Positions 1,644 to 17,585 of a stretch of 42,204 bases of DNA are shown here, in pieces. The notes under the pieces are model-generated. The model was given only the letters and a program-made list of their open reading frames with translations. It had not been told where the DNA came from and ran no database searches. The stretch is from a virus. The DNA lies in the IMG/VR virus record IMGVR_UViG_3300009414_001661, positions 1-42,204 of that record, one strand, 5' to 3'. Within the stretch, counting starts at the first letter, position 1; the number at the start of each line of letters is the position of its first letter. The position numbers were made by a program, and so were the translations under genes.

Positions 1644-2057
1644 TTGACGGAACGGACTCCAGTTGTTTATATAACTAATCTTGGCGCTCACGACTATGAA
1701 CCAGCCAAGGAGTTTGGTGAGCTACGCTTTCTTACGAGGGGCAAGATTAAGCGTTATGCCACTTCAACTATATATAGAGATTTCATTGACGGCATGAGCG
1801 ACGGCATTAAGGAAGACTTTTTGCTCGTATCCTCCCTGAGTATACTTAATAGCATAGCCGCGGCGATCATCGCCAGGAAGTTTGGCGTCGTCAACTTTTT
1901 GCTCTTTAGCGACGGAAAGTATATACTAAGAAGCGTCAACATAGACGCCCTTTTAGACACAAATGAAGGAGTGGGAAATGAAGAAGATCTGCGTCCTGAC
2001 GGGCAAGCGCGGGGGCTACGGCGCGATGAAGCCGATGCTCCGCCTGATAAGGGATGA
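1644..2057 (+). CDS. Conserved-looking phage protein, unknown function (137 aa)
   Basis: TTG 1644 is chosen because GGAG (1631-1634) lies 9 bases upstream. An in-frame TTG at 1629 falls in the terminator T-run. The protein begins TERTPVVYITNLGAHDYEPAK, resembling a small soluble family of phage proteins (VYVTN..HDY near the N-terminus) that I recognise from other phages but cannot name functionally. It ends with an Arg/Asp-rich tail that overlaps the neuC-like gene by 80 bases, an unusually long overlap. Bases 1644-1649 also read as a -35 (TTGACG) with TATATA at 1668-1673, an alternative use as an internal promoter for the cassette. Confidence 0.65.
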   Translation: MTERTPVVYITNLGAHDYEPAKEFGELRFLTRGKIKRYATSTIYRDFIDGMSDGIKEDFLLVSSLSILNSIAAAIIARKFGVVNFLLFSDGKYILRSVNIDALLDTNEGVGNEEDLRPDGQARGLRRDEADAPPDKG

Positions 2058-3087
2058 TCCCTATTTCGAGCTAGACTTCGTTGCCGGAGATATGCACCTC
2101 AGAGAGGACTTTGGCAACACGCTTGATGAGATACAAGATGAGTTTGATGTAACTCCATTAGAGTTAGCCTACAAGCTACCTGATACCAAATACCACAGAG
2201 CCTGTCAAATATCTTACCATACAGAGCTAGTAGCAAAACACCTGGAGAAGTCAGAGCCAGATCTCTTAATGCTCTATGGAGATAGAGGTGAGACTTTAGC
2301 TGCTGCAATAGCCGCACTTGAGTTCAATGTACCTATCGCACACTTGCAAGGTGGCGACACCAGTGGCACGATGGATGACCGTCGGCGCCGGGCTATAACA
2401 GCCCTAGCGGATCTCCACTTCGTGTCACACGACAAGGCAGCGGATAGTGTATCTGATCAGCTCAACCTCGCTGACGATAGGATCTTCGTCGTTGGCGACA
2501 GCCACCTTGATCCCATCTTCGACGGAGAGTTATACTCAATGGATAAGGTGATGAAAGAGCTGACGCTCATGCGTGACTTTCCTATCATCATCGTCCTGTT
2601 TCACCCTGATCCAACAGATCCACGCGATGATAATCTCACCTTCCACAACATCATGGATGCGATTGACGACATAGATAAGCAGTTCGTTATCATCTATCCT
2701 TGTAGCGATCCTGGCTGGAAGAAGATCGTCAAAGCAATACACTGGTTCGACGAGCATCCTAACATACAGATTTATAAGAACCTCCCTTCGCCATTGTTCC
2801 TCGGCTTGATGAACTGCGCCTCTGTGATAGTAGGTAACAGCAGCTGTGGCCTGATCGAAGCGCCGTATATGGATCTACCTTGTGTGAACGTAGGCAACAG
2901 GCAGAAGGGCCGACTCCAGAGCACGAACGTCATAAACGTGGGGCATACGTCACATGAGATAGATAGTGGCTTTCAGCTCGCGATGTACCTAAAACGGAAC
3001 CATATGCCATTCGAGAAGCCTTACGGCAACGGAGCTACAGGCAAGCGCATAGTGAATATACTTAAAAGGGAGTGGTTCAATGACTAA
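1978..3087 (+). CDS. neuC: UDP-GlcNAc 2-epimerase (hydrolysing), NeuC-like
   Basis: In this family UDP-N-acetylglucosamine is hydrolysed and epimerised to ManNAc (or a related 2-epimer) plus UDP, the first step of sialic/nonulosonic acid synthesis in the cytoplasm. The 369-aa product has the GT-B-like NeuC/WecB layout at normal length: start VLTGKRGGYGAMKPML, LYGDRGETLAAA (99-110), LQGGD (123-127), HP (209-210), GNSSCGLIEAP (286-296) and NVGNRQKGRL (304-313). ATG 1978 is preferred over 1963 because AAGGAG lies 6 bases upstream. It overlaps the following dehydrogenase by 8 bases. Substrate could be a derivative of GlcNAc, which sequence alone cannot settle. Confidence 0.9.
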   Translation: MKKICVLTGKRGGYGAMKPMLRLIRDDPYFELDFVAGDMHLREDFGNTLDEIQDEFDVTPLELAYKLPDTKYHRACQISYHTELVAKHLEKSEPDLLMLYGDRGETLAAAIAALEFNVPIAHLQGGDTSGTMDDRRRRAITALADLHFVSHDKAADSVSDQLNLADDRIFVVGDSHLDPIFDGELYSMDKVMKELTLMRDFPIIIVLFHPDPTDPRDDNLTFHNIMDAIDDIDKQFVIIYPCSDPGWKKIVKAIHWFDEHPNIQIYKNLPSPLFLGLMNCASVIVGNSSCGLIEAPYMDLPCVNVGNRQKGRLQSTNVINVGHTSHEIDSGFQLAMYLKRNHMPFEKPYGNGATGKRIVNILKREWFND

Positions 3088-4009
3088 GCCTAGCATCTTA
3101 TACTATGAGTGTCTCAACTATACGAAAGAGAACACCGACTTGCTAATTGATACATTCAATATGTATACACTCCCTGACCCGAAACATGATGAGCGTATCT
3201 TATCCCATGTAGCAGAGAGCATTGAAGCTATCTTCTTACCGCTCGGCTTCAAGTTCAGTGCCCGAAAATGGGGCAACTTCCCTAAACTCAAAGTAATAGC
3301 TAGCAACACAACGACCAGACCTGAGACAGACCCACCTGTTGACGGCCAGCTAGTATGGCTCAACGACCCTGAGTTTCTTGAGAACATCACGAGTACGGCA
3401 GAACACACTCTTGGCCTCATCATGGCAGTTCATCGGCGCTTACCTCACGCGCATTGGTCCACTTGGACAGAGTGGAACCGCTATGCGAGAAGCGCACCTA
3501 AGATGTTGTCACGCTCTAACTTGACGATCTGGGGTCCAGGGCGTGTTGGCACTCACCTGTTTGACCGCGCGGCGCCGCTGTTTAAGACCGTCTGGACGAT
3601 AGGGGAGAATGACCGAGATGAATACATCAACAAAACGCTTGAATATACCGACGTTCTTGCTCTCACGCTTAGTTGTGTTGGGAAACAGCCAGTTGTCACA
3701 AGAGATAAGCTGGAGAGATTGCCAAAGCAGGCTATCGTGGTCAACACGGCTAGGGGCGAAGTACTTGACCACGAAGCTCTCTTACACCTACTCAACACCG
3801 GTCATCTATGGGGAGCAGCGCTTGACGTACTCCCGAATGATCATCGTTTTCAGTATAAAGGCTACGATAGCCTCGCTAATAAGTACCTAGCTTACACGAA
3901 GAAAAGCAGCCATTTGATCCTCACTCCGCACATGGCCGGTTCAACTGAAGATGCCTGGAACATGACTCAGCGTTATATAATAGATAGGGTAAAGGAAATC
4001 CTTATATGA
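3080..4009 (+). CDS. D-isomer 2-hydroxyacid dehydrogenase
   Basis: A 309-aa member of the NAD-dependent 2-hydroxyacid dehydrogenase family (phosphoglycerate dehydrogenase-like). The dinucleotide motif is GPGRVG (152-157), the family signature TAEHTLGLIMA is at 106-116, the substrate-binding Arg is in NTARGEVLD (R225), and the catalytic His in LTPHMAGST (H284). The usual acidic residue falls in ALDVLPND, where Asp appears in place of Glu. It is locked in the cassette by overlaps on both sides (8 and 4 bases). This family is not part of the textbook sialic pathway, so it may oxidise or reduce a sugar-acid intermediate, supply a 2-oxoacid, or do something unrelated. Substrate unknown. Confidence 0.85.
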   Translation: MTKPSILYYECLNYTKENTDLLIDTFNMYTLPDPKHDERILSHVAESIEAIFLPLGFKFSARKWGNFPKLKVIASNTTTRPETDPPVDGQLVWLNDPEFLENITSTAEHTLGLIMAVHRRLPHAHWSTWTEWNRYARSAPKMLSRSNLTIWGPGRVGTHLFDRAAPLFKTVWTIGENDRDEYINKTLEYTDVLALTLSCVGKQPVVTRDKLERLPKQAIVVNTARGEVLDHEALLHLLNTGHLWGAALDVLPNDHRFQYKGYDSLANKYLAYTKKSSHLILTPHMAGSTEDAWNMTQRYIIDRVKEILI

Positions 4010-4701
4010 CTAGCCTAGCATTTATCCCAGCTCGCATCGGATCACAGAGCATTTCTAAAAAGAATCTCCATCTGCTCGGAGGCCGACCCCTCATCGAATG
4101 GTGCATGGATGCGGCGCTTCTCTCTCATGTTGATGAAATAGTATGTTCGACAGATGACGAAGAAATAGCCCGCATAGCAGATGCCATGAACATACAAGCT
4201 GTTGAACGCCCTCCGAATATGTGCGATGGCGAAACTTATCCAATACACGAAATAGTTATTGAATACCTCAACGAGCGAGGCAATGATCCTGACGTAGTTG
4301 TGCTAATTCAGCCGACTAGTCCCTTCATCCTACTTGAGACTATCGACCTGGCGTGTCGCCGCCTCGACGGTATGATACCCAGCCGCTGGGACAGCTTCCA
4401 AACGATAGCGAATATTCCTCATAACTTTCACGCTTGGAACCAGAGGTCGTGGAACCAGGAAACTGGTCAAGTCCAATGGTGCTTTCCTGATCTGCGCAAG
4501 ACGGGCTTTAACAAGGCTCATAAACCCAAGCTATGGAAGTTTGGTAATCTCGTAGCTACTAAGACCGCGGCGCTCAGGGAGAGTGGCTTCTTTGCTATGC
4601 CATCCCTCGGGCACCCGGTTCCATGGACTAGGGCACTTGACTTAGACACACTTGAAGACTTTACGCTAGCGGAGAGCCTACTCAAGGAAGGTGTCATATG
4701 A
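4006..4701 (+). CDS. neuA: CMP-sugar acid synthetase (cytidylyltransferase), NeuA-like
   Basis: Expected reaction: CTP plus a nonulosonic acid gives CMP-nonulosonate and pyrophosphate. The 231-aa product has the cytidylyltransferase layout: IPARIGSQSISKKNL (7-21) for nucleotide binding, CSTDDEEIA (47-55), LIQPTSPF (100-107), and the C-terminal DLDTLEDF metal/substrate signature. Length is normal for the single-domain form. Compared with the usual P-loop (GGSKG) the phage protein reads IGSQS, a mild divergence. Start ATG 4006 overlaps the preceding stop, and its end overlaps the SQD1-like gene (ATGA). KdsB-type or acylneuraminate specificity cannot be separated by eye; the neighbours favour nonulosonate. 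Confidence 0.9.
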   Translation: MTSLAFIPARIGSQSISKKNLHLLGGRPLIEWCMDAALLSHVDEIVCSTDDEEIARIADAMNIQAVERPPNMCDGETYPIHEIVIEYLNERGNDPDVVVLIQPTSPFILLETIDLACRRLDGMIPSRWDSFQTIANIPHNFHAWNQRSWNQETGQVQWCFPDLRKTGFNKAHKPKLWKFGNLVATKTAALRESGFFAMPSLGHPVPWTRALDLDTLEDFTLAESLLKEGVI

Positions 4702-5840
4702 AGATACTGATCCTCGGCGGCGACGGCTATCTTGGCTGGCCCACTGCGATGTATCTTGCAGCTCGAGGCCACGAAATAGCCGTGGTCGATGATCTGTCGA
4801 AAAGACAACTTGAAGCAGAAATAGGATACTCCCCACTATGGCCCATTCCCCCTTTCGCTCATCGCACACTTACGTGGAACAAACTAAAGCCCAGTTGCCC
4901 CATAAAGATGTGGATATGCAACATAGCGACGAACAGATCGCTCTTATACAAGATCATAGACGAGTTCTCGCCGGAAGCCGTTGTCCATTATGCAGAGCAG
5001 CCATCCGCGCCATACTCCATGATGACGGCAAAGGCGGCTGTGGATACTCAACTCAACAATGTGTCGGGCACTTTGAACCTCATAATGGCGATCCTGCATC
5101 ACAATGCAGATTGTCACATCGTAAAGCTCGGTACAATGGGCGAGTACGGGACGCCTAACATAGATATAGAGGAGGGCTGGCTTGATGTTACTCACGAGGA
5201 CCGAACAGACAGAGTTCTCTACCCTAAAAGACCCGGCAGCTGGTACCACCTGTCTAAAGTGCACGACTCCCATAACCTTGAGTTCGCCTGTCGAACCTGG
5301 GGACTACGAGTTACAGATCTCAATCAGGGGATCGTCTATGGAACTGACACAGACGAAACATGGCTTGACAGTAGCCTTAGTACCAGCTTCCACTACGACG
5401 CCATCTTCGGAACAGTTATCAATAGGTTCATTACGCAGGCAGTTGAAAACGCTCCTCTTACAGTATACGGCTCAGGCTCCCAAACTAGAGGATTCCTTGA
5501 TATACGAGACACAATCCGTTGCATTGAGCTTGCTTGCGAAACTCCGCCAGATGGAGGAACTTTCCGAGTAATGAACCAATTCACTGAAAGCTTTAGCATT
5601 AACCAACTTGCAGAGCTAGTCCAGCACATTACAGGCTGTGAGATCGTGCACCTTGAAAACCCGCGTGTGGAGCAAGAAGATCACTATTACAATGCAAAGC
5701 ATACGGCACTCACAGACCTGGGGCTAGAGCCTCACTATCTTACTGCTGACACCCTTGAAGATATGATCCGCCAGGTGCGTAAGCATAAGAAGCTAATCAA
5801 CCCCGAAGCGTTTAAGCCAACAGTTAAGTGGAGGAACTAA
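4698..5840 (+). CDS. sqdB: UDP-sulfoquinovose synthase-like (SQD1/SqdB) SDR enzyme
   Basis: SQD1/SqdB converts UDP-glucose and sulfite to UDP-sulfoquinovose, the head-group donor for sulfolipid and for some archaeal glycans. The 380-aa protein is an extended SDR of the usual length. The NAD motif is GGDGYLGWP (7-15). The family-specific stretches KLGTMGEYGTPNIDIEEG (143-160), YHLSKVHDSHN (183-193), TDLNQGIVYG and QTRGFLDIRDT are all present. The catalytic residues described for plant SQD1 (Thr145, Tyr182, Lys186) match T146, Y183 and K187 here. It is coupled upstream (ATGA) and downstream (TAATG). The match is much closer to SQD1 than to generic epimerases, but activity in a nonulosonate cassette is unproven. 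Confidence 0.88.
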   Translation: MKILILGGDGYLGWPTAMYLAARGHEIAVVDDLSKRQLEAEIGYSPLWPIPPFAHRTLTWNKLKPSCPIKMWICNIATNRSLLYKIIDEFSPEAVVHYAEQPSAPYSMMTAKAAVDTQLNNVSGTLNLIMAILHHNADCHIVKLGTMGEYGTPNIDIEEGWLDVTHEDRTDRVLYPKRPGSWYHLSKVHDSHNLEFACRTWGLRVTDLNQGIVYGTDTDETWLDSSLSTSFHYDAIFGTVINRFITQAVENAPLTVYGSGSQTRGFLDIRDTIRCIELACETPPDGGTFRVMNQFTESFSINQLAELVQHITGCEIVHLENPRVEQEDHYYNAKHTALTDLGLEPHYLTADTLEDMIRQVRKHKKLINPEAFKPTVKWRN

Positions 5841-6523
5841 TGGTCTATGTAATAGCCGAAGCGGGCGTGGATCATGAAGGTGAGTTGAAACGCGCCCTGC
5901 AGCTACTCTATCGAAGTGTTGAAGCCGGCGCCGACTGCTTTAAGATGCAATACTACATTGAGGGCTTCAAAGGGGAGCATCGCACCCTTCCGTGGTTGCG
6001 CCCTCACAATATGAGCCTGATCGAGAAGAAGTGCAAACAAATGGAGATCGACTTCATGCTCACGCCGCATGATGAGTGGGCTCTTGGATATATCGTACAG
6101 GATACTGACATCGATACGATTAAGATTGGTTCCGGTGACTGGGATTTGATACCTAAAGCTGTTGAGTCAGGTAAAGAACTTATAATAAGTTGCGGCGGCA
6201 AGAACAGAAACGACTTGGAACAGTTAAACATCGAGACGGCCAGCCATCCAACTAAGATACTCTATTGCATATCTGAGTATCCTGCTCTCCCCACTTCAGT
6301 TAATCTACTAGATGTGGCTGGTTACGACGGTTATAGCGACCACACTCGTGGGACTGCAATCGCACTCGCGGCTGTCGCCCTCGGCGCCGAGATAATCGAG
6401 AAGCATATTACGCTCGAACAAGATGTGACCGGCCGCAACGATACGTTCTGTTCACTCAGCCCGGATAAGTGGCCCCACTTCGTCGAGGATATTCGCAAGA
6501 TAGAACAGGCACTTGCCCAGTAA
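5840..6523 (+). CDS. neuB: NeuB-like nonulosonate synthase, catalytic barrel only
   Basis: NeuB condenses PEP with ManNAc (or a relative) to form the nine-carbon acid. Start ATG 5840 has GGAGG 5 bases upstream and overlaps the previous stop (TAATG). The 227-aa product matches the TIM-barrel part: IAEAGVDHEG (5-14), KMQYY (35-39), KIGSGD (95-100), SCGGKN (117-122), LYCISEYPALP (141-151), GYSDHTRG (164-171) and GAEIIEKHITLEQ (182-194). Typical NeuB has about 340 residues with a C-terminal antifreeze-like SAF domain; none is present here and the next gene follows immediately. D11 replaces the usual Asn of the NHNG motif. Family membership is clear; substrate and activity without the SAF domain are open. 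Confidence 0.87.
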   Translation: MVYVIAEAGVDHEGELKRALQLLYRSVEAGADCFKMQYYIEGFKGEHRTLPWLRPHNMSLIEKKCKQMEIDFMLTPHDEWALGYIVQDTDIDTIKIGSGDWDLIPKAVESGKELIISCGGKNRNDLEQLNIETASHPTKILYCISEYPALPTSVNLLDVAGYDGYSDHTRGTAIALAAVALGAEIIEKHITLEQDVTGRNDTFCSLSPDKWPHFVEDIRKIEQALAQ

Positions 6524-11937: not shown

Positions 11938-12167
11938 TGGAACGGCTCGAAGAACTCAAAAAATCCCTAGAGAGTATGACCTACGAGGAGCGCCTTACTA
12001 AGCTCCGTGAGATCCGTGAAGATCGCAAGATCAGCAAGCACGCTGTGACTGTACGCAAGAAGCGTGAGCAAGACAAGGGGGCTAAGCTAAAGTCAGCTAT
12101 TGCCGATATGACCCCAGAGGAAAAAGCACAATTTCTGGAGATGTTAAATGCGAGTCAAGCAGGTTAA
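11937..12167 (+). CDS. Charged helical protein (76 aa)
   Basis: ATG 11937 overlaps the previous stop (TAATG), with GAGG upstream. The product is nearly all helix with heptad-like charged repeats (LEELKKSLESM, LTKLREIRED) and a C-terminal TPEEKAQFLEML that resembles the end of the 121-aa early protein at 1129 (SADERARLIAEL). It overlaps the ParB-methyltransferase gene by 20 bases. It may be a DNA-binding or adaptor partner; no family assigned. Confidence 0.65.
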   Translation: MERLEELKKSLESMTYEERLTKLREIREDRKISKHAVTVRKKREQDKGAKLKSAIADMTPEEKAQFLEMLNASQAG

Positions 12168-13428
12168 GCTAGATGAGATAAAAGTAGGAGATAGGTTCCG
12201 TGAAGATATGGGGGACATTGAATCTCTGGTTGCTAGTGTCAAAGAGAAAGGTCTTATACAACCTATTTCGATTGACCACGAGGGTAACTTGCTGGCAGGC
12301 GGCCGGCGGTTCCAAGCTGCTACAGAAGCAGGTCTCAAGAGTATACCAGCTATTAGTATTGAAGTACACGGCGAGCTTGATAGCCGAGAGATCGAGCTTA
12401 TCGAAAATACGATTAGAAAAGACTTCACCTGGGTGGAGCGAGCGAACCTAGAAAAGCGTATATTCGATCTGCGCCGAGAGAAAGATCCGGAGTGGACTCA
12501 ACGAGATCAGGTCGAACTTATGGGCGGATCGAAGGGTCAGACAAATCGGCGCCTACAGCTGGCAGAGATCATCGACGCTATTCCCGAACTCGGTGAAGCG
12601 GCTACGGAGAAGGAAGCCTGGAAGAAGTACCAACGCTTGAAGGAGGATATAGTAACGCAATCCCTGATGGCTGAGGATGATCCCCGCTTTAAGGAAGTCT
12701 ACAAGAGTTGTCACAATGCTTATAAGATCGGCGATGCCATAGCCGGGATGAAAACCGTAGGCTTCTCAAGGGGCAATACGCTCTTTATTGAAGTCGATCC
12801 CCCGTATGGGGTACAACTCCACGCTAGAAAAGACCGCAACCAAGACCTAGCGAGGATGGATAACTACAACGAGGTCGATGCTAAGGATTATCCCTCATTC
12901 ATCGAAGAAGTAGCCATCGAGTGTTTCGATCTAATGGCTGAACATTCATTTATGATCTGGTGGTTCGGACCCCAGTGGTATCAGGAAGTAATAACTATAC
13001 TGCGTAAGGTCGGTTTCAAAGTGGGAGACATACCGGCAGTATGGACTAAGGGCTCGGCGGGACAAACGGCTAGCCCTGACACGATGCTAGGTAGTGCGTA
13101 TGAGCCTTTTTTAGTCTGCCGGAAGGGTATGCCAAAACTCCGCAGTCCGGGCCGAAGCAACGTGTTCCACTTTGAGCCAGTCTCGCCTCAACACAAGATC
13201 CATCCGACGGAACGGCCGATTGCGTTGATGAACGAGATAATGGAGACGTTCGTCTATCCTAAGAGCCGAGTATGTGTCCCGTTCCTTGGCTCAGGGGTAA
13301 CGCTAAGAGCTGCGTACATTAATCAGTGTATGGGGTTCGGATGGGACTTGGATGAACTATGCAAGAAGCGGTTCATCAATGCTGTTTATAAGGATATGAC
13401 AGAAGGAGAGGGTAATGAGACAGATTGA
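12148..13428 (+). CDS. ParB/Srx-domain DNA methyltransferase fusion
   Basis: A 426-aa two-domain protein. Residues 1-110 are a ParB/Sulfiredoxin-type domain (GNLLAGGRRFQA at 46-57, ENTIRKDFTWVERA near 86-99). Residues about 205-426 are an amino-methyltransferase with DPPY (217-220), HPTERP, and FLGSGVTLRAA near the end; catalytic motif before SAM-binding motif indicates the beta class (N6-adenine or N4-cytosine). No restriction gene accompanies it, so it is an orphan enzyme, probably for protecting phage DNA or controlling replication. Recognition site unknown. Confidence 0.85.
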   Translation: MRVKQVKLDEIKVGDRFREDMGDIESLVASVKEKGLIQPISIDHEGNLLAGGRRFQAATEAGLKSIPAISIEVHGELDSREIELIENTIRKDFTWVERANLEKRIFDLRREKDPEWTQRDQVELMGGSKGQTNRRLQLAEIIDAIPELGEAATEKEAWKKYQRLKEDIVTQSLMAEDDPRFKEVYKSCHNAYKIGDAIAGMKTVGFSRGNTLFIEVDPPYGVQLHARKDRNQDLARMDNYNEVDAKDYPSFIEEVAIECFDLMAEHSFMIWWFGPQWYQEVITILRKVGFKVGDIPAVWTKGSAGQTASPDTMLGSAYEPFLVCRKGMPKLRSPGRSNVFHFEPVSPQHKIHPTERPIALMNEIMETFVYPKSRVCVPFLGSGVTLRAAYINQCMGFGWDLDELCKKRFINAVYKDMTEGEGNETD

Positions 13429-13675
13429 GATAGAGGAAAAGGTAAATGACGATGATGCTGAGTATTTCCTGACTCATCCAGGTGAAGATAGCTTTGAACG
13501 TCCTTATATACCTGGAGAGATGCCAAAAGAGGCAGAAGATGAGGTTGGCAAGCTATTACAAAGCAAGGCTAAGGAAGCGGGTCGTCCAGGAACTGTATGG
13601 ATTAAAGTATTTAGAGTTGATCAAGCTACTAGAGCCAGAGTTCCATACATAGAACTAGATGCACCGGTGTGCTAA
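13415..13675 (+). CDS. Hypothetical acidic protein (86 aa)
   Basis: ATG 13415 lies inside the end of the methyltransferase gene with GGAG upstream, and the stop overlaps the polymerase start (TAATG). The N-terminal two thirds are rich in Asp/Glu (EEKVNDDDAEYFL, PKEAEDEVGK), the C-terminal part is a likely beta strand pair (GTVWIKVFRVDQ, RVPYIELDAPVC). No domain recognised. The tight coupling to the polymerase suggests a replication accessory role. Confidence 0.65.
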   Translation: MRQIEIEEKVNDDDAEYFLTHPGEDSFERPYIPGEMPKEAEDEVGKLLQSKAKEAGRPGTVWIKVFRVDQATRARVPYIELDAPVC

Positions 13676-15306
13676 TGACCACCCCCTATGAAGAAGGCGA
13701 CCCTGCGAGTAAGATCTGCATAGTCGCAGAGGCTCCCGGTCGCTCAGAGATGCGCCTCAACCGGCCGCTCGTCGGCCCCAGCGGACAGCTACTCGAAAGC
13801 TGTATGCACAGCGCCAAGATGGTGCGCCGAGAGTGTTATCTGTTGAATATCTTTCCCAAGATAGTCTACAAAGACAAAACCGGAAAGAATGTAAAAACTC
13901 CTGATGGAGACATACTATGGACGAGCAAGGACGGCCTGACCTTACTAGGCCAGGAGCTTGCGGCACCTTACTTGAAGCGTCTCTCGAGCTGCGATGCCAA
14001 TGTTGTAGTGCCACTTGGCGGAACGGCTCTTTCCTGCCTATTTGGGGACAGCCGAATAATGAAGTGGCGAGGATCTATCTTATACGCAAAGAAAGAGGCG
14101 AGCGGGAAGAAACTTGTACCGACTGTCCATCCAGCAGCTTGCTTACGGGGGCAGTATCTGTGGCGACATCTGCTGATAAGCGACCTCGACCGAGCGAAGA
14201 AAGAGAGCAAGAGCCCAAGCCTCAACCTGACCAAGAGGGATCTACAAGTGGGTCCAGACTTTCAGCAAGTGAGAAATTACTTGAGCGAGTGCGCCAAGCT
14301 CGGCGCCGTGGCGTTTGACATAGAAGTCACGAACCATCAGGTCCACTGTATTGCGTTTGCTAAGAGTGCTTATGACTGTATGAGCGTTCCAATCGTCAAA
14401 GGTAATGGAGCGGACTATTGGACTATAGAGCAGGAGGAACAGATATGGTTGTTGATAAGCGCTGTCCTAGGAAACTCAAAGATATTGAAGATTGGTCAGA
14501 ATCTAATATTCGACATCTCGTTCCTGTTACAGCAGATGAATATTCATACATCTGGTCAAGTTGGAGATACTATGATATTGCATCATATAATGTATCCCGA
14601 CTTCCCCAAGGGCTTAGACTTCTTATGCTCAATGCACACCCGCGAACCGTATTACAAGGATGAGGGAAAGATCTGGAAAAACCCTGGACGCGACGTTGAG
14701 AGCTTTTGGCTCTACAATGCTAAGGACGCCGCCACGACGTTTGAGATATGGGACGTGCTGAGTAAGGATGCCGAAAAGAGCGGTTTCATGAAAACGTATT
14801 GGGACACGGTAGAGATGTTCCCCTCCCTCCTGTATATGATGATACGCGGCTTCGGAATTGACACCGAGCGCTTGCAAGCCACAAAGATAGAGGTTGAGGC
14901 CAAAATCAAGGAGAAGCAAGATGAACTAGACAAGGTGGCCGATCATCCGTTCAATATCTCAAGTCCTAAACAGGTTCAAAACTACTTCTACCTCGAAAAA
15001 GGAATCAAGCCTTACATCTCGAGAACAACAGGTAGACCTACAACTGACGATAAGGCTATGTCTCGAATATACAGACGATATAACCTCCCTGAAGCCAAGC
15101 TGGTTCAAGAGATTAGGGCGCTCTCCAAGCTCCACGGTACATATCTCGAAGTCAAGTTTGATAAAGACGGTCGTATCCGATGCAGCTACAACCCCCGAGG
15201 GGCCACGACAGGAAGGCTCTCCAGTAGTAAGACAATCTTCGGAACAGGAATGAACTTACAGAATCTTCACCCCGACTTTAAGGGATTTTTGGTGGCAGAC
15301 TCATGA
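13675..15306 (+). CDS. polA: DNA polymerase I, N-terminal half: UDG-like, 3'-5' exonuclease, thumb
   Basis: Start ATG 13675 overlaps the preceding stop. Residues 1-160 resemble a family 4/5 uracil-DNA glycosylase (AEAPGRSEMRLNRPLVGPSG, later VPTVHPAACL). Residues about 200-360 are a DnaQ-type exonuclease with all three motifs: FDIEV (Exo I), GQNLIFDI (Exo II), YNAKDA (Exo III). Residues about 385-543 are the PolA thumb and start of palm (FNISSPKQVQNYF, GATTGRLSSS, MNLQNLHPD). The frame stops right after FLVADS, where family A polymerases continue into motif A. Motifs A, B and C are encoded separately at 15518-16399. The halves look intact, so this is a split gene rather than decay. Confidence 0.88.
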   Translation: MTTPYEEGDPASKICIVAEAPGRSEMRLNRPLVGPSGQLLESCMHSAKMVRRECYLLNIFPKIVYKDKTGKNVKTPDGDILWTSKDGLTLLGQELAAPYLKRLSSCDANVVVPLGGTALSCLFGDSRIMKWRGSILYAKKEASGKKLVPTVHPAACLRGQYLWRHLLISDLDRAKKESKSPSLNLTKRDLQVGPDFQQVRNYLSECAKLGAVAFDIEVTNHQVHCIAFAKSAYDCMSVPIVKGNGADYWTIEQEEQIWLLISAVLGNSKILKIGQNLIFDISFLLQQMNIHTSGQVGDTMILHHIMYPDFPKGLDFLCSMHTREPYYKDEGKIWKNPGRDVESFWLYNAKDAATTFEIWDVLSKDAEKSGFMKTYWDTVEMFPSLLYMMIRGFGIDTERLQATKIEVEAKIKEKQDELDKVADHPFNISSPKQVQNYFYLEKGIKPYISRTTGRPTTDDKAMSRIYRRYNLPEAKLVQEIRALSKLHGTYLEVKFDKDGRIRCSYNPRGATTGRLSSSKTIFGTGMNLQNLHPDFKGFLVADS

Positions 15307-15521
15307 GTGTAAATATAGCTAAATACAATCCGCCCAGGGAGCTAGTCAAGGCTCTGATGGAATTGATGGATACACTTGCTAGCGACGTACGCAAGCAGAC
15401 GGGTGCACCTGAAGGCGCTTGTTGTGTAGCAGCTATTACTGTTCTCAGAGGCTTTATTGACGCCATGGAAGCAGAGATTAAAGTCCTCGAATCGGCAAGT
15501 GATCCGGAGACAAAGCATTGA
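15303..15521 (+). CDS. Small gene inserted between the polymerase halves (72 aa)
   Basis: ATG 15303 overlaps the stop of the N-terminal polymerase half (ATGA), and its TGA 15519-15521 overlaps the TTG start of the C-terminal half. The product is mainly helical (PPRELVKALMELMDTLASDVRKQ, then a Cys-Cys-Val-Ala-Ala hydrophobic helix) without endonuclease motifs (no HNH, GIY-YIG or LAGLIDADG). It exactly fills the gap. It could be a linker or subunit that helps the halves assemble, an unrelated insertion, or an incidental frame in a very short intron. Confidence 0.6.
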   Translation: MSVNIAKYNPPRELVKALMELMDTLASDVRKQTGAPEGACCVAAITVLRGFIDAMEAEIKVLESASDPETKH

Positions 15522-16399
15522 ACCTCTTAGTTGAGCTAGACAAAGCCGGCGCCGAGTGGGTCATAGTAGCGTATCTTTCTTGCGACGGGGCGATGATAGC
15601 CGTCGTGGAGGGTGGCCTCTCACCGCACACGGCGACTGGCGTCTTAATAAGCCATAGCAATAAGGATTTCGTCGAGGCCGAGAGTAAGGCCGTCGGCATC
15701 CATACTGATCCGCTTAAGATTATCGAACTACGCGAGGGATTAGAGGCCGAGGCGGAGTGGTATCTGCCGCGCTCCATGTCGATACGTCAAGCAGCTAAGA
15801 AATCGAACCATGGGCTTAACTACGATATGAAGTATAAGCGATTCGCTCTTGAGCTCGAGATAGCCGAGATGGAAGCGAAGGAACTTGTAAGGCGCTATCA
15901 CAGCGCATATCCGGGGATAGCACAATGGCACAAACACGTTCAGGAGCAACTTCGCAAGGACAGGATGCTCACGAACTGCTTCGGCCGACAAAGAAGATTT
16001 ATGGACGGTTGGGGACCTCAATTGTTCGATGCCGCTTACTCGTTCATACCCCAAAGCACGGTTTTCGATATTACGCGGGAAGGTATGATTGGCTGGCAGA
16101 ACGACGACAGTATGGACCGCATAGAACTCCTGGCGCAGACTCACGACAGCTTAACCTTCCAATTCCTCGACGTTAAAGACGGAAAAGATCTTGCGCCCCA
16201 TGCAGTGAAAATTGGCCTAGACTATATGAACCCTACACTCAACTATAACCAAAGAGAATTTCAAATAGGCACAACCATGAAGATTGGCACAGACTGGGGC
16301 GGGGGCAGTATGCACGAGTGCTTGCTCTCCGATGACGTTGACGCGACCGCGGAGGCGGTAGACGGACTATTGGAGCGTATCCGTGGAGCGCAAGCTTAG
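15518..16399 (+). CDS. polA: DNA polymerase I, C-terminal half: palm and fingers
   Basis: TTG 15518 starts 8 bases after a GGAG element and overlaps the previous stop. The 293-aa product begins directly at motif A (LVELDKAGAEW, catalytic Asp 8), carries motif B (RQAAKKSNHGLNYDM) and motif C (QTHDSLTF, His-Asp about 209-210), so all catalytic residues of a family A polymerase are here. It lacks the exonuclease and thumb, which lie in the upstream half. The last 17 bases overlap the next gene. Reconstitution from two polypeptides, or RNA splicing of the 15303-15521 segment, would give a full enzyme. Confidence 0.88.
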   Translation: MNLLVELDKAGAEWVIVAYLSCDGAMIAVVEGGLSPHTATGVLISHSNKDFVEAESKAVGIHTDPLKIIELREGLEAEAEWYLPRSMSIRQAAKKSNHGLNYDMKYKRFALELEIAEMEAKELVRRYHSAYPGIAQWHKHVQEQLRKDRMLTNCFGRQRRFMDGWGPQLFDAAYSFIPQSTVFDITREGMIGWQNDDSMDRIELLAQTHDSLTFQFLDVKDGKDLAPHAVKIGLDYMNPTLNYNQREFQIGTTMKIGTDWGGGSMHECLLSDDVDATAEAVDGLLERIRGAQA

Positions 16400-17585
16400 T
16401 GATTGGCTGACCGGCCATTTAGAGTATACAGAGAACAGCGAAAGTCCCCTCTCATATCATACATGGGCAGGGGTAAGCTGTATCGCAGCGGCGCTTCAGC
16501 GTCGGGTATATATGAATTGGGAAACGCAGATTTTCCCTAATCACTATATTTTGTTGATCGGGCCGAGTGGCAGGAGTCGAAAAGGCCATGCCTTGCAGGT
16601 CGCTAGTGATTATCTAAGCGAGCTAAACGTAACACTGATGAGCGAAAACCCGACGCCCGAAGCGTTTATCAAGGATATGCACGGCGCCGAGATCCAGTTC
16701 CTGGATGAGACTACCGGGAACTTTGTTTATCAGTCCCCAGTTACCTCGATAGTTGAGGAGCTGGCAGTAATGTTAGGACAGCAGAATGTACAGTTCCTCA
16801 GTTTCCTCACTAACTGGTATGATAGTAGATATAAATGGACCCGACGAACAAAGCATCAAGGAACTGACATTGTTCTTGGAGTCTGCCTCAATATCCTCGG
16901 CAGCTCAGCTCCTGATTGGCTCCCAGGAATTCTTACAAGAGAAGCAGTCGGAGGGGGTTTTACCTCCCGATGCATCTTTGTTGTTGAAGAAAGAAAACGA
17001 AAGACTGTGCTTGACCCTACTCAGGGAAGACCAGACCCCCTACTCAGGGACTCATTAATCCACGATCTTGAAATGATGATGTGCCTCTCAGGAGAATACA
17101 CCTTCGAAGACGATGCCAAAGAGATGTATATGGACTGGTACGGGACGGAGGAGGAAAAGCTACAGAGTGGCAAGCTCAACTTGGGTGATCCTGCCCTCTT
17201 GGGCTATGCTGCCCGGCGGCCGACGCACATTCGCAAGATAGCCATGTGCATGGCGGCGAGCCAAAGTGACGAACTAGTGCTTACAGTGAATGACCTTGAA
17301 AGGGCCATCACGCTGTTGACGGCCGCAGAACAGAATATGCACATGGTATTCAGCGGGATAGGCCGGAACAAATGGGTGGCTGAGACCGAACTTGTTATGA
17401 GTTACATCAAGAAACAGGGCGTCTGCCTCCGGAGCGAACTCCTAGATCACCTTTATAGGGACATCAGCGAAGAAGCCCTCGAGAGTATCATTAACGTGAT
17501 GGTAGCCATGCGTCGCCTCAAGGTGGATATAATGGGCGAACAGGGGGATAGACGATTCACTTATAAGGAGAAGAAAGGTGGCTAA
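16383..17585 (+). CDS. DUF3987-like ATPase, putative replication helicase
   Basis: A 400-aa protein, GTG start with GGAG 8 bases before. The P-loop-like GPSGRSRKGHA (about 60-70) is the DUF3987 variant of Walker A, preceded by WETQIFPNHYILLIG. SIVEELAVML supplies the acidic Walker B residues, and SSAPDWLPGILTREAVGGGFTSR is the sensor/arginine-finger-like region. The C-terminal 70 residues look like a winged helix. In phages this family replaces or helps a DnaB-type helicase or primase, and I see no other helicase or primase here. Overlaps the deaminase by 8 bases. Confidence 0.7.
   Translation: MERKLSDWLTGHLEYTENSESPLSYHTWAGVSCIAAALQRRVYMNWETQIFPNHYILLIGPSGRSRKGHALQVASDYLSELNVTLMSENPTPEAFIKDMHGAEIQFLDETTGNFVYQSPVTSIVEELAVMLGQQNVQFLSFLTNWYDSRYKWTRRTKHQGTDIVLGVCLNILGSSAPDWLPGILTREAVGGGFTSRCIFVVEERKRKTVLDPTQGRPDPLLRDSLIHDLEMMMCLSGEYTFEDDAKEMYMDWYGTEEEKLQSGKLNLGDPALLGYAARRPTHIRKIAMCMAASQSDELVLTVNDLERAITLLTAAEQNMHMVFSGIGRNKWVAETELVMSYIKKQGVCLRSELLDHLYRDISEEALESIINVMVAMRRLKVDIMGEQGDRRFTYKEKKGG

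Follow-up and report, generated by a model that had tools for sequence, protein, structure and literature searches.

In the window, the 42,204-nucleotide stretch of viral DNA analysed here (IMG/VR record IMGVR_UViG_3300009414_001661), a family A DNA polymerase is encoded by two genes, and the break between them falls just before catalytic motif A. Family A polymerases are textbook single-chain enzymes. The two-gene structure is conserved among relatives of the virus, the halves have independent starts, each part is under selection, and the break lies in a turn in the predicted model of a related polymerase. In our judgement, the polymerase is very likely made as two co-translated polypeptides that form one enzyme; physical assembly and activity are inferred, and no family A example is backed by protein, RNA, or biochemical data.

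Organization of the split locus

The N-terminal half (positions 13675–15306, plus strand; start ATG 13675, stop TGA 15304–15306) contains a UDG-superfamily domain, a 3'-5' exonuclease, the thumb, and the first part of the palm with the TGRLSSS (R668-equivalent) motif. It matches PF03167 (E 9e-16), PF01612 (E 5e-11), PF00476 (E 7e-18), and phrog_17, and the protein ends in ...HPDFKGFLVADS, its C-terminal residues also being given as ...GMNLQNLHPDFKGFLVADS. The C-terminal half (positions 15518–16399, plus strand; start TTG 15518, stop TAG 16397–16399) begins with (M)NLLVELDKAGAEW and supplies the rest of the palm and the fingers, as judged from PF00476 (E 1e-18), alignment, and matches to Taq, Klenow, and Bst. 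PF00476 scores above its curated cut-off in both halves and covers positions 2–126 of its 381 in the first and 206–379 in the second. Motif A (LDKAGAEW), motif B (RQAAKKSNHGLNY, R..K...H...Y), and motif C (THDS, with HDS) all reside in the C-terminal half. Across an alignment of 12 sequences, residues D8, E13, K94, Y102, H209, and D210 are invariant and R90 is nearly so.

The two halves are separated by a 72-residue spacer ORF (positions 15303–15521, plus strand), predicted to encode a two-helix hairpin, that overlaps each half by 4 nt. The junctions read ATGA at 15303–15306 and TTGA at 15518–15521, and a ribosome-binding-like sequence with GGAG (15506–15513, plus strand) lies upstream of the TTG start. 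The C-half is in turn overlapped by the next gene of the operon, a primase-like gene at 16383–17585 on the plus strand (phrog_14296 DNA primase; DUF3987). The N-half, the spacer ORF, and the C-half occupy three different frames of the plus strand, so no single-base error could join all of them.

The initial annotation, made from the letters alone, had described a family A polymerase split just before motif A, with the three catalytic motifs intact in the second half and reading frames coupled on both sides. ORF calls, Pfam, and the motif alignment bear out the split; the ends of the two halves are as it wrote them, the motifs are invariant or near-invariant among relatives, and both couplings, including the GGAG, are confirmed. 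An assembly artefact or a single uninterrupted frame would have refuted that description, and neither was found: a second contig (L002) has an identical arrangement, an equal break recurs in many independent samples, and the locus runs in three frames. We therefore rule out an assembly or sequencing artefact. The usual expectation that a family A polymerase is a single polypeptide is not met by two ORFs with separate starts; a single chain is no catalytic requirement.

No further PF00476 protein was found in the window besides the two halves. A second polymerase is not fully excluded, because the linear record may be incomplete and only PF00476, along with Pfam on part of the ORFs, was searched. 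Close upstream of the polymerase, positions 12148–13428 encode a ParB N-terminal domain fused to an N6/N4 DNA methyltransferase. Further away, at 1963–6523, the phage carries a nonulosonic (sialic-like) acid gene set comprising UDP-GlcNAc 2-epimerase, 2-hydroxyacid dehydrogenase, cytidylyltransferase, NAD epimerase, and NeuB.

Conservation of the break in two lineages

About 100 loci were gathered from IMG/VR using the C-half and alignments of each half as queries, and a joined-protein profile was run against every forward ORF of each locus. Twenty-three sequence-distinct viruses, the window included, are split at profile position 539–556, with F(L/I)(V/I)xx on one side and the motif A strand on the other. 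All 23 belong to one clade in a tree of 70 polymerases (SH-aLRT 99). A search of related phages for intact versions, proposed by the initial annotation as a check, recovered them, and the closest relatives of the split clade (L013, L104, and L093) are uninterrupted at motif A. Inside the clade, C-half identity to the window falls to ~45%, which indicates that the split state is old. Nonsynonymous change is far below synonymous change in the N-half, the C-half, and the spacer ORF (window versus L003; L007 versus L008), evidence of purifying selection. Outside this set, a Bacteroidetes MAG contig (L116) recovered in a GTDB scan is one additional split case, with evidence too weak for host assignment, and two further split loci of unsure placement (L083 and L095) each have a MazG ORF preceding the C-half.

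Every one of the 23 C-halves has its own ATG, GTG, or TTG, located 5–11 codons ahead of the motif A Asp, and the start overlaps the stop of the preceding ORF in 20 of them; a start codon occurs at that place in just 4 of the 29 intact relatives. In most intact relatives, the motif A strand is preceded by F-L-x-x-D-(P/E)-G-(Y/F). The D-(P/E)-G turn is absent from the split versions and is encoded on neither side of the break.

The intervening DNA ranges within the clade from 164 nt (L010) to 3132 nt (L055). In the short-spacer branch, a homologous small ORF sits at the break, and homologues of about 70 residues occupy the equal position in eight loci (L003, L005, L006, L007, L008, L010, L011, and L033). 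For this ORF, dN is ~0.46 versus a dS of ~2.3, and AF2 predicts the two-helix hairpin with a pLDDT of 90. The protein has no Pfam, PHROG, or PDB match, and a fold search returned nothing below E 0.001 (best E 1.7), a search that is uninformative for a two-helix hairpin. Elsewhere in the clade, the spacers encode GH25 lysozyme (endolysin), M15 peptidases, ThyX, and MazG-like, HTH, and methyltransferase-like proteins. An indispensable third subunit encoded at the break was considered and rejected as a general role for the spacer protein, given the other genes found in L009, L012, and the long-spacer branch and the relatives in a second lineage that lack any spacer. A fragment of an HNH endonuclease (phrog_826, E 6e-11 and 7e-9) is present in two spacers (L036 and L040). 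It is plausible, on evidence that is only suggestive, that the split began by insertion at a conserved catalytic site, possibly of a homing endonuclease; this origin is inferred, and the HNH fragment could instead be a later arrival.

That second lineage includes MEP401 and MEP402, cultured OM43 phages whose polymerase consists of gp13 and gp15 with a 77-residue ORF between them; the C-half begins MILNADAKALEW, the equal site before motif A. The split was described by the MEP401 authors, who suggested an intron (PMC10580990). Among 80 related IMG/VR contigs of this lineage, all 72 that carry both halves in order are split, with spacers from none to 635 nt. In ten contigs without a spacer, the N-half stop and the C-half ATG share one base; in L162 the sequence is TAATG. 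An equal break with the same TAATG overlap is present in QDWS535, a cultured Alcaligenes phage for which no relatives were matched in IMG/VR. Other genes lie within the 3.6 kb that separates the two halves in the circular genome MW202796. The sisters of the MEP lineage, HMO-2011 and HTVC033P, are intact. Constraining the window clade and the MEP clade together was rejected (AU test, p-AU 0.0004); intact relatives lie between them, and the tree needs a minimum of four changes. Judged from these sequences, the split of the MEP lineage arose separately from that of the window clade. An apparent extra A in a homopolymer of the MW202697 C-half (L108, ~2505) breaks the frame in motif A and is probably a sequence error.

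Several related polymerases are interrupted at other sites. A separate break, which falls within the exonuclease domain immediately ahead of the Exo III motif, occurs in L013 (2953–3305), L018 (5086–5702; the cultured Caulobacter phage Kuura), L093 (5029–5713), and L104 (4960–5199); where the intervening DNA was read, it contains small ORFs. A further break follows NLQNIP, ~30 residues ahead of motif A (L084, L101, L102, and L103; L115 at 2732–3264). It is found in another clade and in Vibrio phage VS-ABTNL-3, where there are three overlapping ORFs; only ~44 nt lie between the ORFs in L101. Long in-frame insertions, intein-like by size, are located near motif B in L061, L086, and L092 and just before motif A in L071. 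At position 762 (E. coli Pol I numbering; window 15785–15823), His is found in all 59 of the 70 polymerases that have the motif pattern; Tyr, Phe, and Leu types have been described at this position (Nasko et al. 2018, PMC6302109).

Two polypeptides or one

Where the break falls in three dimensions was read from a predicted model of the polymerase region of L013 (pLDDT 90.7), a close relative, and not from the window halves. The model matches Taq, Bst, and Klenow (E down to 9e-24, query TM about 0.65–0.72), so that the criterion of a polymerase fold is met by way of this predicted relative. In it, the break falls in the turn A228-D229-P230-G231, flanked by strands 226–227 and 232–238, the latter being the motif A strand. 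Because the break falls in a short turn, the halves could fold together with no covalent bond between them.

The mechanism that we propose begins with two polypeptides made from neighbouring, translationally coupled genes of one operon. The N-half would contribute the UDG-like domain, the proofreading exonuclease, the thumb, and the palm edge with the conserved arginine of TGRLSSS, while the C-half would contribute the motif A strand, the fingers, and motif C, holding motifs A, B, and C together. The interruption would lie in the short turn between two palm strands, the cut turn becoming a new pair of ends, and the active site would be assembled from both chains, neither of which holds the whole site. 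The DNA once inserted may later have been replaced by other small genes.

Other readings keep a single chain. According to one, a short self-splicing intron or intron-like element is removed from the polymerase mRNA. Phage polymerase genes are favoured intron sites, that of SPO1 carries one together with a homing endonuclease, and both the MEP401 authors and the initial annotation raised the possibility, the latter as its alternative to two subunits. The SPO1 site, however, lies ~30 residues upstream. Rfam gave no intron family match for the window segment or for 23 related loci (the segment searched at E up to 10, 15 split loci at the gathering threshold), a negative that is weak alone because Rfam is blank too at the intron-like breaks of other sites. 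RNA folding stays at the level of shuffled sequence (z -0.21 and -0.28); what lies between the halves is either a conserved ORF or a set of ordinary genes spanning up to 3.1 kb, and no splicing event could bring back the missing D-P-G turn. Ten contigs and QDWS535 have the break with 0 nt between the halves, and elsewhere 3.6 kb of genes intervene. Conservation, variable gene-bearing spacers, own starts, the lost turn, and the spacer-free cases together leave the short intron without support and very unlikely. Translational bypassing or frameshifting could also join the halves into one chain, and the overlaps of a few bases between ORFs are compatible with it; in the spacer-free relatives, shifting frame at TAATG might in principle fuse the halves. 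Spacers of 164–3132 nt, the several genes across 3.6 kb in the other lineage, and a start codon belonging to each C-half make this very improbable. A split intein was rejected, since the termini extend only a few residues beyond conserved sequence and leave no room for intein halves.

The halves might instead have parted functionally, the N-half working by itself as a UDG/exonuclease and the C-half having taken on another role. The several kilobases between them in L055 and MW202796 would fit such a parting, but polymerase-core residues are kept on each side (TGRLSSS and the thumb in one, motifs A, B, and C in the other), neither half alone has a complete polymerase active site, and both are present wherever contigs are long enough; we consider this very improbable. 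A further reading has the locus decaying or misassembled and a host polymerase doing the replication; no expression data counter it, and the record may be incomplete. This reading is nonetheless extremely improbable in view of the identical second contig, a state kept through a deep clade, invariant catalytic residues, and strong purifying selection. The same cut, kept in many relatives and recurring in unrelated phages, looks like a working two-part enzyme and not like an intron or a sequencing error. The two-subunit polymerase put forward in the initial annotation is thus strongly supported by the conserved break, variable gene-bearing spacers, independent starts, loss of the turn, purifying selection, and spacer-free cases, its assembly being inferred. 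A more far-reaching version, which we regard as doubtful, holds that family A polymerases are repeatedly split at the turn before motif A: at least three phage lineages would have moved, independently and stably, to an obligate two-chain replicase whose active site is shared between the chains, and the conserved small helical protein of the window's branch would be a third subunit or assembly factor.

Significance and comparison with known systems

Split phage polymerases of the T4-type PolB class are already known, as is one family A example, MEP401. What is new is that the split is deeply conserved, that it recurs independently at one turn, and that the evidence speaks against an intron; in the literature searched, which left subscription journals largely uncovered, a conserved two-gene family A polymerase is undescribed apart from MEP401 and MEP402. 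A palm break beside the catalytic aspartate that persists deeply and recurs suggests that two chains can assemble into this fold when the cut lies at one particular turn. Such an enzyme would provide a natural model for designing split polymerases, and annotations that assume an intron or list two 'DNA polymerases' would be corrected. The states from intact, through no spacer and a small ORF, to several genes would form a clear series in which the fission of a gene for an essential enzyme could be studied.

The polymerase of Desulfofustis phage LS06-2018-MD01 (OP947158) has an equal domain order with 33–35% identity and a similar neighbourhood of ParB-like gene, polymerase, and primase, but it is one intact gene. 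SPO1 gene 31 shares the combination of UDG-like domain, exonuclease, and family A polymerase in an interrupted gene, with an endonuclease ORF in SPO1; in contrast, its interruption (GRLSSNEP|NAQQFP) falls upstream, at the NLQN-equivalent motif, and the annotation there gives an intron that restores one chain. The split gp43 (43A/43B) of the T4-related Aeromonas phages 25 and 44RR is, like the window's enzyme, a replicative polymerase in two polypeptides; it differs in being family B and in its association with a Seg endonuclease or an untranslated spacer. The phage 25 gp43 halves co-purify and are active (PMC2988022, citing Petrov et al. 2010), which makes them the precedent for the association and activity inferred here. 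The closest parallel in layout is the gp13/gp14/gp15 arrangement of MEP401 and MEP402 (PMC10580990), where two ORFs that flank a small uncharacterized one encode a family A polymerase, with the break immediately before motif A and an independent start for the C-half; unlike the window, it belongs to a separate lineage, lacks the UDG domain, and has an unrelated-looking spacer ORF.
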